Shown: one piece after another, positions 29,751 through 32,981 of the stretch | How positions within the stretch are numbered: the first letter of the stretch is position 1 | Layout of the letters: every line of letters begins with the position of its first letter | Source: Streptomyces sp. SLBN-31 | GTDB taxonomy: Bacteria; Actinomycetota; Actinomycetes; Streptomycetales; Streptomycetaceae | NCBI RefSeq assembly: GCF_006715395.1 | Contig: NZ_VFNC01000001.1 | Span: 3,224,001 to 3,288,000 of the forward strand | Direction of reading: 5' to 3' | Length of the DNA: 64,000 bases | Notes under the pieces: generated by a model | What the model was told of the DNA's origin: nothing | The model's input: the letters and a program-made list of their open reading frames with translations, nothing else | Databases searched by the model: none | Program-made: the position numbers and the translations under genes

Positions 29751-30500
29751 ATGCCGGGCGGCAGGCTCACGCAGCAGGAACGTCGGCAGATCGCGCTCGG
29801 GCTGGCCGACGGGCTCGCCTACGCGGAGATCGCCCGACGTCTGGACCGCCCGACCTCGACCGTCACCCGCGAGGTGATGCGCAACGGCGGCCCCACCGCC
29901 TACCGCGCCGACCTCGCCCACCGCGCCACCGAACGCCGGGCCCACCGCCGTCGGCAGGCCGCGCCCCGCGGGACGCAGGCGGCCCCGCAGCCCTACGGAC
30001 GCGATCCCGAGGCCGTACGCGCGTACGAGGAGACCCTCACCACCGTCTTCATGCAGTCGGGCACACCCCAGATGATGGCGCGGGTGATGGCCTGCCTCAC
30101 CGTCAGCGACACCGGCAGCCTCACCGCGGCCGAACTCGTCCAGCGCCTCCAGGTCAGCCCGGCCTCCGTCTCCAAGGCCATCGCCTTCCTGGAGGGCCAG
30201 GACCTGGTACGCCGGGAACGCGACGAACGCCGCCGCGAGCGCTACGTCGTCGACGACGAGGTCATGTACCAGGCGATGATCTCCAGCGCCCGGGCCTCCG
30301 CCCAGGTCGCCGAGACCGCACGGCAGGGCGTCGGCGTGCTCGGCCCCGGCACCCCGGCCGGCGCGCGCCTCGAAAACACCGCCCGCTTCCTCGACTTCGT
30401 CTCCGAAAGTCTCGTCCGCGCCGCCGAACAGGCCCGCGAGATCCTCCACACCAAGCCGGGGGCGATCGAGTCCGAAGTCGGTGGGGTTCACGACGTGTGA
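29751..30500 (+). CDS. GbsR/MarR family regulator with N-terminal IS30-type HTH
   Basis: 249 residues from ATG 29751 (GAAGGAGGCCGCG upstream). An N-terminal HTH_38/IS30-transposase-like domain (about 5-65: LTQQERRQIALGLADGLAYA, then IARRLDRPTSTVTREVMRNG) is joined to a GbsR/MarR winged helix (about 85-240: MMARVMACLTVSDTGSLTAA, then VSPASVSKAIAFLEGQDLVR). Two DNA-binding units in one chain are unusual. It is divergent from the DUF4097/ABC operon and the shared region carries repeated TTGCAA elements, so it probably represses both directions. The inducer is unknown. Confidence 0.85.
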   Translation: MPGGRLTQQERRQIALGLADGLAYAEIARRLDRPTSTVTREVMRNGGPTAYRADLAHRATERRAHRRRQAAPRGTQAAPQPYGRDPEAVRAYEETLTTVFMQSGTPQMMARVMACLTVSDTGSLTAAELVQRLQVSPASVSKAIAFLEGQDLVRRERDERRRERYVVDDEVMYQAMISSARASAQVAETARQGVGVLGPGTPAGARLENTARFLDFVSESLVRAAEQAREILHTKPGAIESEVGGVHDV

Positions 30501-30509
30501 GTTCGTCGC

Positions 30510-30548
30510 CCCTCATGTTTCATGCGGCCGGCGCATGAAACATGAGGG
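30510..30548. promoter_or_regulatory. Perfect 16-bp inverted repeat upstream of the HTH-tap-tpg operon
   Basis: CCCTCATGTTTCATGC and its exact complement GCATGAAACATGAGGG are separated by 7 bases. Each arm contains the near-palindrome CATG-TTT-CATG. The element begins 10 bases after the regulator gene's stop and ends 6 bases before a TATAGG box. It could be an operator, or a terminator for the upstream gene, or both; its place against the -10 favours an operator. Confidence 0.65.
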
Positions 30549-30569: not shown

Positions 30570-30878
30570 ATGAGTATGAGCCTGGAGGAGCGGGTGCGGT
30601 CCGCTGTGGCGGCTCTTCTGCATGCGGCGGGCGAGTCCCAGACCGAGCTCGCGGGTGCGCTGGGAGTGAGCCAGGCGCAGGTGAGTCGGCGTCAGTCGGG
30701 TGCGGCCGCATGGAGTCTGGCCGACTGCGAGGTGGTCGCCGCGCACTACGGCATCGACGTCCTCGACCTCCTGGCAGGACCCACCCGCGCCGCGGAGGCG
30801 TTGCCCGCCGGACGCCGTCGCGTCCCCGGCCGGCAGACCACCGCGCGTCCTGCGGCCGTAGCGGACGGGGATGTGTGA
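30570..30878 (+). CDS. Small HTH protein, first gene of the tap-tpg-like operon
   Basis: 102 residues from ATG 30570. An XRE/lambda-repressor-like HTH covers about residues 5-60 (HAAGESQTELAGALGVSQAQ, then VSRRQSGAAAWSLADCEVVA, and HYGIDVLDLLAG). The C-terminal 30 residues are Arg/Pro/Ala-rich. It is probably the repressor of its own operon through the 30510-30548 inverted repeat; this is inferred from position. Its TGA overlaps the ATG of the Tap-like gene (TGATG), so the two are coupled. Confidence 0.8.
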   Translation: MSMSLEERVRSAVAALLHAAGESQTELAGALGVSQAQVSRRQSGAAAWSLADCEVVAAHYGIDVLDLLAGPTRAAEALPAGRRRVPGRQTTARPAAVADGDV

Positions 30879-32416
30879 TGGGTGACTTCGAGGCGATCGA
30901 CGCACTGCTCGCCCGCGCCGGGAAAGCGGTCCCGCTGCCCCCGGCGGAGGAGCGACGGGCCCTGCGTGAGGAGCTGAACCTCTCCCGCGCCCAGCTCGCC
31001 CGGGCGCTGGGGGTCGGCCCCTCCACGGTCGGGGGCTGGGAGTCGGGGCGCGACCCGAGCGGTGAAGTGCGGGAGAAATACGCGTACTTCCTCGAGGGGG
31101 CACGGACCAAGCTGGCGGCTGCCGCTGCCGAGGACGATCCGGTTCAGGAGCCGGAGGAGGACGTGTCGGGGGATGCCGGCCGGGACGTCGGCCCGGACGA
31201 CGAGGTCGACGTACTCGCCGTTGCGCGGCCCTGTGTGCTGTGCGGGCAGCCGGCCCACCACGAGGTGGCCGGATATCCGCAGCACCTCGACCCCGCGGAA
31301 TGTGCCGCGGCCCCGCCCACCCCGGGTTCCGAGCAGATCCCGGCCACCTCGGATGCTCGACCCCACTCTCGTCCCCGTCCCGGCGGACGGCCCGCCGGAG
31401 GGGTGCGGATCGTGCCCGCCGGACGCCGCGTGCAGCCCGCGGACACCCCCGACCTGGTCGTCTCGGCCGTCGCGGCCGCGCTCGCCGAACACTCAGGCGA
31501 CGTGGAAGCCGCCACCGCGGCGCTGACCAAGCGGGCGATCCCGGACGCGATGGCGCTGCTGGACCACAGCCGCAAGGGCGGCCGTTACGACGTCATCGCC
31601 CACCCCTGGCTGCCCGACATCCTGCGCAAGCAGACCTCGCGGGGCGCCGACCAGATCTGGGAGGCCCGCCCCAAGTGGACGCGCCCCGAACTGCCGCCGG
31701 GCGAGCACGAGGTGACCGCGCTCGACGTCAACGGCGCCTACCTCTCCGCGTTGAAGACCCACCTGCCGATCGGTCAGTTGGAGCACTCGACCGGCGACCA
31801 CCACGACCGGCGCCGTGCAGGCGTCCACCTGATCACCCCGCCCGTCTGGGAACACGACGCGGTGCTGCCCAACCCGGTCGGCAGCCGCGACGAGCCGGGC
31901 CCGCTGTGGGTGACCGAGCCGACCCTGCGCCTGCTGCTGCGTCTGTCGGGCCCGAAGTACGGCCTGTGCGATCCGCCTCGGATCCACGAGTCGTGGACGT
32001 CGGGCGCCACCGAGGGTCTGCTGGAGAAGTTCCGGGTCGCCCTGAAGGACGCCCGGGACGCGGCGATCGCCGAGGGCGACGAGGTGACGCTGGAGTACGT
32101 CAAGGCGATGTACTCGAAGTTCGTCTCCACGCTGGGGGAGTCGAACTACAACCGGGAGCTGTACCGCACCGACTGGATGCACCTCATCCGCTCTCAGGCC
32201 TTCGCGAACCTGTGGTGGAAGGCCCACCGCGCCTACGACGAGGGCCTGATGGTGGTCCGTGCGATGGGCACCGACGAACTGCACGTCATCGGCGACTGGC
32301 AGGCCGTGTTCGCGGAGGGACGCGGCCTGACCGAGGTGAAGGTCAAGGACGTCTACGTTGTCGGGGCGGACCCGTACAGTGATCCTCACACCGAGGACGG
32401 AAGAGACGATGCCTGA
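30878..32416 (+). CDS. tap: Tap-like telomere-associated protein, short form
   Basis: 512 residues from ATG 30878 (overlapping the previous stop). The N-terminus (PPAEERRALREELNLSRAQL, then GVGPSTVGGWESGRDPSGEV and YAYFLEGARTKL) closely resembles the HTH of Streptomyces Tap. A disordered Pro/Arg region (about 85-190) with a CxxC-type cluster (ARPCVLCGQPAHHEVAG) follows. The C-terminal half has polymerase-like motifs: VTALDVNGAYLSAL, YVKAMYSKFVSTLGES and MGTDELHVIGDWQ. Tap recruits Tpg to telomere 3' overhangs and has been reported to act as a telomere primase. It is shorter than the usual roughly 740 residues, so orthology is tentative. Confidence 0.75.
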   Translation: MGDFEAIDALLARAGKAVPLPPAEERRALREELNLSRAQLARALGVGPSTVGGWESGRDPSGEVREKYAYFLEGARTKLAAAAAEDDPVQEPEEDVSGDAGRDVGPDDEVDVLAVARPCVLCGQPAHHEVAGYPQHLDPAECAAAPPTPGSEQIPATSDARPHSRPRPGGRPAGGVRIVPAGRRVQPADTPDLVVSAVAAALAEHSGDVEAATAALTKRAIPDAMALLDHSRKGGRYDVIAHPWLPDILRKQTSRGADQIWEARPKWTRPELPPGEHEVTALDVNGAYLSALKTHLPIGQLEHSTGDHHDRRRAGVHLITPPVWEHDAVLPNPVGSRDEPGPLWVTEPTLRLLLRLSGPKYGLCDPPRIHESWTSGATEGLLEKFRVALKDARDAAIAEGDEVTLEYVKAMYSKFVSTLGESNYNRELYRTDWMHLIRSQAFANLWWKAHRAYDEGLMVVRAMGTDELHVIGDWQAVFAEGRGLTEVKVKDVYVVGADPYSDPHTEDGRDDA

Positions 32417-32981
32417 GCGGAACCTCGAGTTCGGCAAGTACGGCGCCCGCGGCATCAAGGGCCACGAGGCCGTGGCCCGCCAACTGGACGCGCTCGCCGG
32501 CTACATCGCCACGCCCGTCACCGTCCGGCGAGGTCTGCTGGCCCGTCTGCACTATCTCACCCGCACCGACCACGCCCGCGCCGCGGCCCGGGCCGCCGGT
32601 CTGACCGTCACCGACCGCACCGTGCGCGCCTGGCTTGACGGCACCCGGTCGCCCTCGCGGCGGAACCTGGAGCGCGTCGAGCGGGCGTACCGCACCGTGC
32701 GGCGCGAGAACGTCGCCCGCTACCTGACCGCCCGCCTCAACCGCGCCGGCCGCGGCACCCGCGTGGAGATCCACCCGCTCAACCAGTCCGGCGTCGACCG
32801 GCCCCGCCAGCGCGTCGTGGAGTTCCGCACCCTCAACGTGCGCCGCTGGGACCGCATCGTCGCCGCCTGGGCGGCCGGCGACGACCGGGAACTCGACGAG
32901 GCCTGGGTCGACCAGGTCGTCGACCTCGGCTCGCAGTGGGGCCAGTACGAGTACGTCACCAACGTCGGCTTCGCCGCCTGA
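32409..32981 (+). CDS. tpg: Tpg-like terminal protein
   Basis: 190 residues from ATG 32409, overlapping the tap-like stop by 8 bases. Size and layout fit Streptomyces Tpg (about 185 residues): basic N-terminus (FGKYGARGIKGHEAVARQLD), HTH (ARAAGLTVTDRTVRAWLDGT, then RSPSRRNLERVERAYRTVRR), a basic bridge, and a C-terminal domain (VEFRTLNVRRWDRIVAAWAA, then QWGQYEYVTNVGF). Tpg is covalently linked to the 5' ends of linear replicons and primes end patching; several Tyr/Thr/Ser are available but the linking residue cannot be assigned. Similarity by eye is moderate, so this may be a divergent family with another role. Confidence 0.7.
   Translation: MPERNLEFGKYGARGIKGHEAVARQLDALAGYIATPVTVRRGLLARLHYLTRTDHARAAARAAGLTVTDRTVRAWLDGTRSPSRRNLERVERAYRTVRRENVARYLTARLNRAGRGTRVEIHPLNQSGVDRPRQRVVEFRTLNVRRWDRIVAAWAAGDDRELDEAWVDQVVDLGSQWGQYEYVTNVGFAA

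Follow-up and report, generated by a model that had tools for sequence, protein, structure and literature searches.

A divergent Tap/Tpg-like operon of Streptomyces and its probable role at Sg2247-type telomeres

Tap and Tpg maintain the telomeres of linear replicons in Streptomyces, a genus reported to encode no family B polymerase and a Tap without a polymerase motif (PMC4513846), and the proteins that patch the ends of the non-archetypal, Sg2247-type telomeres have been called elusive (PMC8743542). In the passages of PMC7205883 that deal with the gtpB-gtpA pair, it is described as a two-gene operon whose GtpA is 18% identical to Tpg, as the sole system detected in a number of strains whose telomeres have GGA loops, and as encoding proteins about 50% identical between the GGA-loop-telomere population and Streptomyces griseus; one passage also says that the linear plasmid of strain RLB1-9 (written pRLB1-9.1 there and pRLB1-9.2 elsewhere in the paper) encodes no Tap or Tpg homologue. 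Here, we describe three coupled genes within a 64,000-nucleotide stretch of the Streptomyces sp. SLBN-31 genome (contig NZ_VFNC01000001.1, positions 3,224,001 to 3,288,000; hereafter "the window") that encode a small helix-turn-helix (HTH) protein, a Tap-like protein, and a Tpg-like protein. The evidence supports a divergent telomere-type system as the best reading of this operon, and we put at roughly 80% the probability that it patches the ends of linear replicons bearing Sg2247-type telomeres, which would make it a second telomere-copying system in Streptomyces beside canonical Tap/Tpg.

A three-gene operon with a predicted polymerase domain

The three genes lie on the forward strand at positions 30,570–30,878 (102 residues), 30,878–32,416 (512 residues), and 32,409–32,981 (190 residues), overlapping by 1 base (30,878) and 8 bases (32,409–32,416) just as described in an original prediction made from the letters alone. 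Because relatives of the 512-residue protein number 1,867 among 7,985 scored candidates and those of the 190-residue protein 934 among 6,250 (E ≤ 1e-3), these genes are not chance frames. The first gene encodes, as foreseen, a small HTH protein, of the BetR/XRE type (PF08667, E 2.4e-6), which we propose to be an autoregulator and DNA-binding subunit.

The 512-residue protein has an N-terminal HTH_3 domain (E 2e-10) and matches the NCBIfam Tap model NF047542 with E 1.6e-19 and 70 bits (best stretch residues 4–163), a significant profile similarity that bears out the proposed Tap-like HTH and lies below the curated cut-off of 600 bits, outside archetypal Tap. In hhalign, where our values against canonical Tap are pairwise comparisons and not database searches, residues 1–85 (positions 30,878–31,132, forward strand) align as a Tap-type HTH domain over 83 columns at 39% identity (E 3.8e-25, probability 99.7), and the C-terminal domain aligns with E 1.4e-5 and probability 80; a homologous HTH and a homologous C-terminal domain are thus shared with archetypal Tap. 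Between the two lies a Cys/His cluster, C119-x2-C122-x13-H136-x5-C142 (31,232–31,303, forward strand), that may form a zinc ribbon; among 86 sequences C122, H136, and C142 are invariant and C119 nearly so.

Residues 178–502 (31,409–32,383, forward strand) are predicted to form a protein-primed family B polymerase-like domain, with motif A containing D283 (codon 31,724–31,726) and motif C containing D466. The stretches ALDVNGAYLSALK, EYVKAMYSKFVSTLGES, and GTDELH are conserved in relatives, and both aspartates are invariant in each of two alignments (86 and 44 sequences), in keeping with the polymerase-like motifs noticed originally. An AlphaFold2 model of the domain alone (predicted local distance difference test, pLDDT, 89.2; predicted template modeling score 0.88) retrieves phi29 polymerase as its top match in both Foldseek and VIA, which gives the domain a predicted phi29-type fold; motif A is in register with phi29 in the hhalign alignment and motif C was paired by eye, placing the two catalytic aspartates of phi29-type polymerases. 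The residues before 178 hold the HTH, the cysteine cluster, and a linker, with no exonuclease domain seen, suggesting that one is absent. The full-length AlphaFold model is of low quality across the polymerase region (mean pLDDT 67), and a structure search with it returns mainly HTH proteins, phi29 polymerase coming fifth (E 0.11). With Pfam, the 512-residue protein shows HTH domains alone, the polymerase domain of 44 members gives nothing convincing (best E 0.005, DUF5995), and an hmmsearch of the polymerase-domain profile against PDB sequences finds nothing (best E 0.85). A rival reading, in which the trio consists of the annotated transcription regulators and plays no part at telomeres, is suggested by these HTH domains and by databases that call the relatives regulators; it is extremely unlikely in view of the high-confidence predicted polymerase fold with its invariant acidic residues, and of the DnaB-like helicase fusions and telomere co-occurrence described below.

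The 190-residue protein had been predicted to be Tpg-like. It is indeed a partner gene with many relatives, as counted above, and its similarity to Tpg proper proves marginal, both for the protein against model NF047541 (E 0.015 and 15.3 bits against a cut-off of 90, outside archetypal Tpg) and for its family in a profile comparison with canonical Tpg (E 0.0095, probability 4%); its HTH_3 match is likewise below cut-off (E 0.01). A candidate priming residue is S175 (codon 32,931–32,933), which is Ser in 208 of 209 aligned rows, many of them close relatives, and Thr in one. In subfamily B2 (see below) its neighbors are acidic (DLDS[DE]Y), and Y49, Y94, and Y180 are as conserved as S175. The pertinent passages of PMC3572947 give T114 as the Tpg priming residue, which Ser can replace and which Asp follows in the sequence, and S232, flanked by Asp and Glu, in the phi29 terminal protein.

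Co-occurrence with Sg2247-type telomeres and replicon ends

The pair of Tap-like and Tpg-like genes is carried by plasmid pSCAT, the terminal 200 nt of which match 44 plasmid records and lie within 120 bp of an end in 32. A Tpg-like gene is present in 29 of these 32 (24 among the matches listed, three by direct search, and two by reading the locus), a co-occurrence with the Sg2247-type telomere in which many records are related and the counts are not independent. The pSCAT end sequence is found in none of the best 60 of 397 plasmid records with canonical tpg. In the other 12 records, telomere-like sequence lies 0.7–20 kb inside the end (e.g., CP108236, CP108988, CP107763, and CP075613) and may represent buried or replaced telomeres; five of these are among the Tpg-like matches listed, and seven fell outside the check. 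Plasmid pSGZL, typed as having an Sg2247 telomere in PMC8743542, has a Tpg-like gene and no canonical Tpg, its left end being a variant missed by the end motif described next; the same record (NZ_CP003988.1) is circular in PLSDB, yet its left end is telomere-like.

A motif made of the word GACGCG and, after it, a CTAC-loop hairpin occurs at the replicon ends examined in eight genomes, all with the pair, and in none of 19 genomes without it; these ends were chosen partly because they held matches, and the background outside the terminal 200 nt is 8 matches in 191,400 nt. One further match, at the right end of contig C1 of the host genome, falls in coding-like sequence with no matching hairpin and was set aside; counting it would give 14 ends and nine genomes. 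The motif is also present at two of five plasmid ends adjoining the gene (S. albidoflavus NBC_01331 and NBC_00493). A 24-nt telomere word is found with up to two mismatches in seven of 121 genomes, each of which has the pair, and at contig ends in six of them; at three mismatches it is noise, a reversed control pattern matching about 20 genomes too. Compared with shuffles, the terminal strands of six ends fold with z of −6.2 to −7.2 in four cases, −2.9 in one, and −1.3 in one, and the hairpin loops are GGA, GTA, and GAA, those reported for the Sg2247-type class (PMC8743542). Plasmid pRLB1-9.2 likewise has the pair and an Sg2247-like end. Service to a different telomere type, one of the possibilities raised originally, gains support from this co-occurrence.

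A Tpg-like match occurs in 53 of the 121 Streptomyces genomes (E ≤ 1e-3; at least 100 bits in 48), and a query from subfamily B, which includes B2, has a match in 171 of 392 genomes, weak and partial matches counted. The survey against canonical tap/tpg that the original prediction had proposed reveals enrichment where canonical Tpg is missing: of the 34 genomes in which no Tpg exceeds the cut-off, 25 have the Tpg-like protein, whereas the share is 23 of 87 among those in which one does (Fisher p 3e-6; eight genomes with no match in the canonical Tpg comparison are inferred as the remainder). Seven of the 121 genomes (G023, G067, G071, G084, G086, G118, and G120) have neither a canonical Tpg above cut-off nor a divergent match; they may rely on another telomere system or have a circular chromosome. 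We also observed frames of 763–872 residues that match only about residues 275–490 of the Tap-like protein (30–33% identity, E 8e-15 to 3e-18), such as G120:C30:68790-69470, G092:C38:39418-40092, G010:C45:19585-20166, and G023:C58:41910-42584; G120 and G023 are without canonical Tpg and without a full divergent Tpg, and these frames possibly belong to a third, larger telomere polymerase family.

Far from being mainly circular with no tie to ends, the replicons that carry relatives include linear plasmid records, and other relatives lie at chromosome ends. Plasmid records with a match number 154 for the Tpg-like protein and 397 for canonical Tpg, and among the first 33 of 60 subfamily B matches listed on plasmids the median distance to an end is 3.3 kb and 31 point outward. 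Several copies lie in both terminal repeats or near an end, for example about 605 bp from both ends in G063 and at base 549 in G014, where the Tap-like gene is elsewhere. In G343, two replicons (C1 and C2) have a Tpg-like match at 36–542, starting 36 bp in from the left end, and mirror copies near base 10,130,519 (C1) and base 967,855 (C2). This association with replicon ends argues against a protein-primed repair, mobile-element, or defense process away from telomeres, which would account for the internal copies and recalls the phage design of a polymerase with a protein primer. PADLOC returns a single weak match, to the small HTH protein only (E 0.0059), and PHROG matches are to regulators and uncharacterized families, with no entry bearing the name of a polymerase or a terminal protein; a defense or phage origin is unsupported by either search, and we regard such a nontelomeric process as very unlikely.

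Module exchange, operator, and genomic setting

Relatives exchange the N-terminal part of the polymerase protein. In subfamily A, to which the window belongs, the HTH-polymerase gene often follows a free-standing small HTH gene, whereas in subfamily B2 (G063, the S. albidoflavus NBC_01331 plasmid, and others) a homologous HTH domain is fused to the polymerase domain. A DnaB-like stretch is present in 25 of 94 loci compared. Six proteins were scanned with Pfam, and in four of them DnaB_C and a Phd/YefM-like segment share a reading frame with the polymerase, the segment scoring below cut-off in three. On pRLB1-9.2, just 20 bp separate a complete upstream dnaB (L236:1071-2480) from the Tap-like gene, and no small HTH gene was found in front of that gene, dnaB standing in its place. 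These fusions fit the argument in PMC4513846 that removing Tap from the end probably requires a helicase.

Directly 5′ of the operon is a perfect palindrome with 17-bp arms and a 5-nt loop (30,510–30,548; DNA fold z −7.4), and CATGTTTCATG occurs twice in the window versus 0.15 expected. The palindrome is not itself a conserved element, none of 31 other loci having a perfect palindrome with arms of at least 10. A looser search revealed a shorter word inside it, ATGCG-N5-CGCAT (30,522–30,536), which is found, as such or in mirror form, with at most one mismatch in the 100 upstream bases of 31 of 35 regions, window included (exact in 16), against a mean of 0.63 and a maximum of 4 in 100 shuffles; the word was chosen on a set overlapping the counted one, near-identical loci included, and the count, from which one locus with too little upstream sequence was left out, is not an independent test. 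It stands upstream of both separate and fused HTH types, and one exact copy lies at a replicon end examined (G022C3, right). In the simplest reading this is a probable autoregulatory operator, at which the small HTH protein may control its own operon.

The neighboring genes are ordinary: an ABC-type ATPase (read by eye), an FtsX permease, a glyoxalase, and a DUF4097 protein. The gene preceding the operon (29,751–30,500) combines an N-terminal HTH_38 with a MarR domain, a pairing in one protein of which we know no other instance. No RNA families or tRNAs were found in the window.

Weight of evidence, mechanism, and known systems

Several observations, besides the relatedness of the plasmid records, weigh against the end-patching assignment. 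The segment YVKAMYSKF falls on MLNSLYGKF of phi29 such that the invariant K409 meets an Asn rather than the phi29 Lys, and the sequence profile is not significant against phi29 polymerase (hhalign E 0.12, probability 0.5), nor does canonical Tap fare better in the same comparison (E 0.55). Two of the 32 records with a terminal pSCAT match lack the Tpg-like gene, pSHJG1 having an Sg2247-type telomere with canonical Tpg only and CP108583 the telomere with neither gene; a third, CP003721, was outside the search. The end motif is missing at the ends examined in nine genomes with the pair, host included, some of whose assemblies stop short, and was not found at the pshk1, S. mobaraensis, and Kitasatospora plasmid ends (three of the five adjoining the gene) or at the right end of pSCAT. 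Of the 87 genomes with canonical Tpg, 23 carry the divergent protein in addition, the pair is not always adjacent (G014, G100, and G119), and subfamily A matches on plasmids lie a median of 62 kb from the end with only 24 of 47 pointing outward (47 of 60 matches listed, near-duplicates dropped). We have slightly lowered our confidence because the motif B lysine is unassigned and because of the nine pair genomes without the end motif.

The host genome itself (G000; 9.47 Mb in three contigs) adds two further points of this kind. The trio sits 3.25 Mb into the 4.25-Mb contig C1, and no assembled telomere is present, the telomere word being absent and the contig ends not telomere-like; since dnaA is on contig C3 and a passage of PMC11260486 places dnaA near the chromosome center, we take C1 to be an arm contig and the trio to be internal. 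The host copy could accordingly be a chromosomal relic of recombination with a linear plasmid that does not serve the host chromosome, as its internal position, its ordinary neighbors, and the mostly internal placement of subfamily A on plasmids would suggest. We consider this unlikely, given that none of the three frames is interrupted, that their overlaps and the operator are preserved, and that the trio is the sole Tap/Tpg-type pair found in the genome: the NF047541 profile finds no Tpg match there, and the Tap profile finds only the trio locus and one other, weak one (E 3.8e-5), neither above cut-off.

For end patching at Sg2247-type telomeres, the mechanism we infer is as follows. Bidirectional replication would leave a 3′ overhang that folds into hairpins, and the 512-residue protein would bind the folded end through its HTH, probably together with the small HTH protein. 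The phi29-like domain would then add the first nucleotides to a hydroxyl of the 190-residue terminal protein, S175 being the candidate, and this protein would stay on the 5′ end while a host polymerase completes the strand; the small HTH protein or its fused counterpart would repress the operon at ATGCG-N5-CGCAT. The operon, the domains shared with Tap, the predicted fold, the association with one telomere class, the operator, and the fusions come out of the computational analysis; binding, catalysis, the choice of priming residue, and autoregulation are deductions from them. More broadly, we lean slightly toward a view in which as many as some two fifths of Streptomyces species copy their replicon ends with a domesticated phi29-type family B polymerase that has no exonuclease and has been recombined with exchangeable modules for DNA binding and helicase activity; canonical Tap would then be a distant member of that polymerase family.

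The pair is thus a named and testable candidate for Sg2247-type end patching, a possible marker gene for linear replicons, at present named a "transcriptional regulator," and a potential compact protein-primed polymerase for linear DNA engineering. If true, the family B reading would explain how Tap, reported to be without a polymerase motif, can use a protein primer for DNA synthesis, and would answer in structural terms the Tap polymerase question raised in PMC4513846. In the literature, most of it judged from listings, we found no paper that links particular proteins with Sg2247-type telomeres or describes Tap as having a family B fold. A 2017 paper (PMC5449611) calls Tap a "telomere associated primase" in its title and may anticipate part of the polymerase claim.

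It is rather probable that the family is that of S. griseus GtpB-GtpA, a terminal protein with its partner, and is therefore biochemically known, leaving only its breadth, telomere class, and fold as new, a possibility that is compatible with the end-patching mechanism and competes with its novelty. The operon and GGA-loop description in the passages of PMC7205883 cited above agrees with it, the ends studied here show GGA, GTA, and GAA loops, and S. griseus strains encode subfamily B proteins 45–57% identical to those of the window (one over 318 residues only). Against it, the link to GtpB/GtpA (SGR_RS00475/SGR_RS00470) is circumstantial, and pRLB1-9.2 carries the pair even though a passage of that paper reports no Tap/Tpg homologue on the RLB1-9 linear plasmid.

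Compared with archetypal Tap/Tpg, the trio has the same tap-tpg gene order, Tap HTH, catalytic-like C-terminal domain, and partner of about 190 residues, but its Tap-like protein has 512 residues versus a 695-position Tap model (NF047542), both curated cut-offs are missed widely, the similarity of its partner to Tpg is marginal, and it has another telomere class, an extra small HTH gene, and an operator. With phi29 polymerase and terminal protein it shares the predicted domain fold, motif A in register, and a separate protein partner, whereas an HTH and a cysteine cluster stand in front of the polymerase domain in place of a visible exonuclease domain, and full-genome synthesis there would contrast with end patching here. 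Tac/Tpc of SCP1, likened to the trio by description only, is also a pair of a non-archetypal telomere, with priming in vitro (PMC4513846). S. griseus GtpB/GtpA, again likened by description, form a two-gene operon with non-archetypal GGA-loop telomeres in the part of PMC7205883 devoted to them, and the trio proteins and GtpB/GtpA probably belong to the same family.
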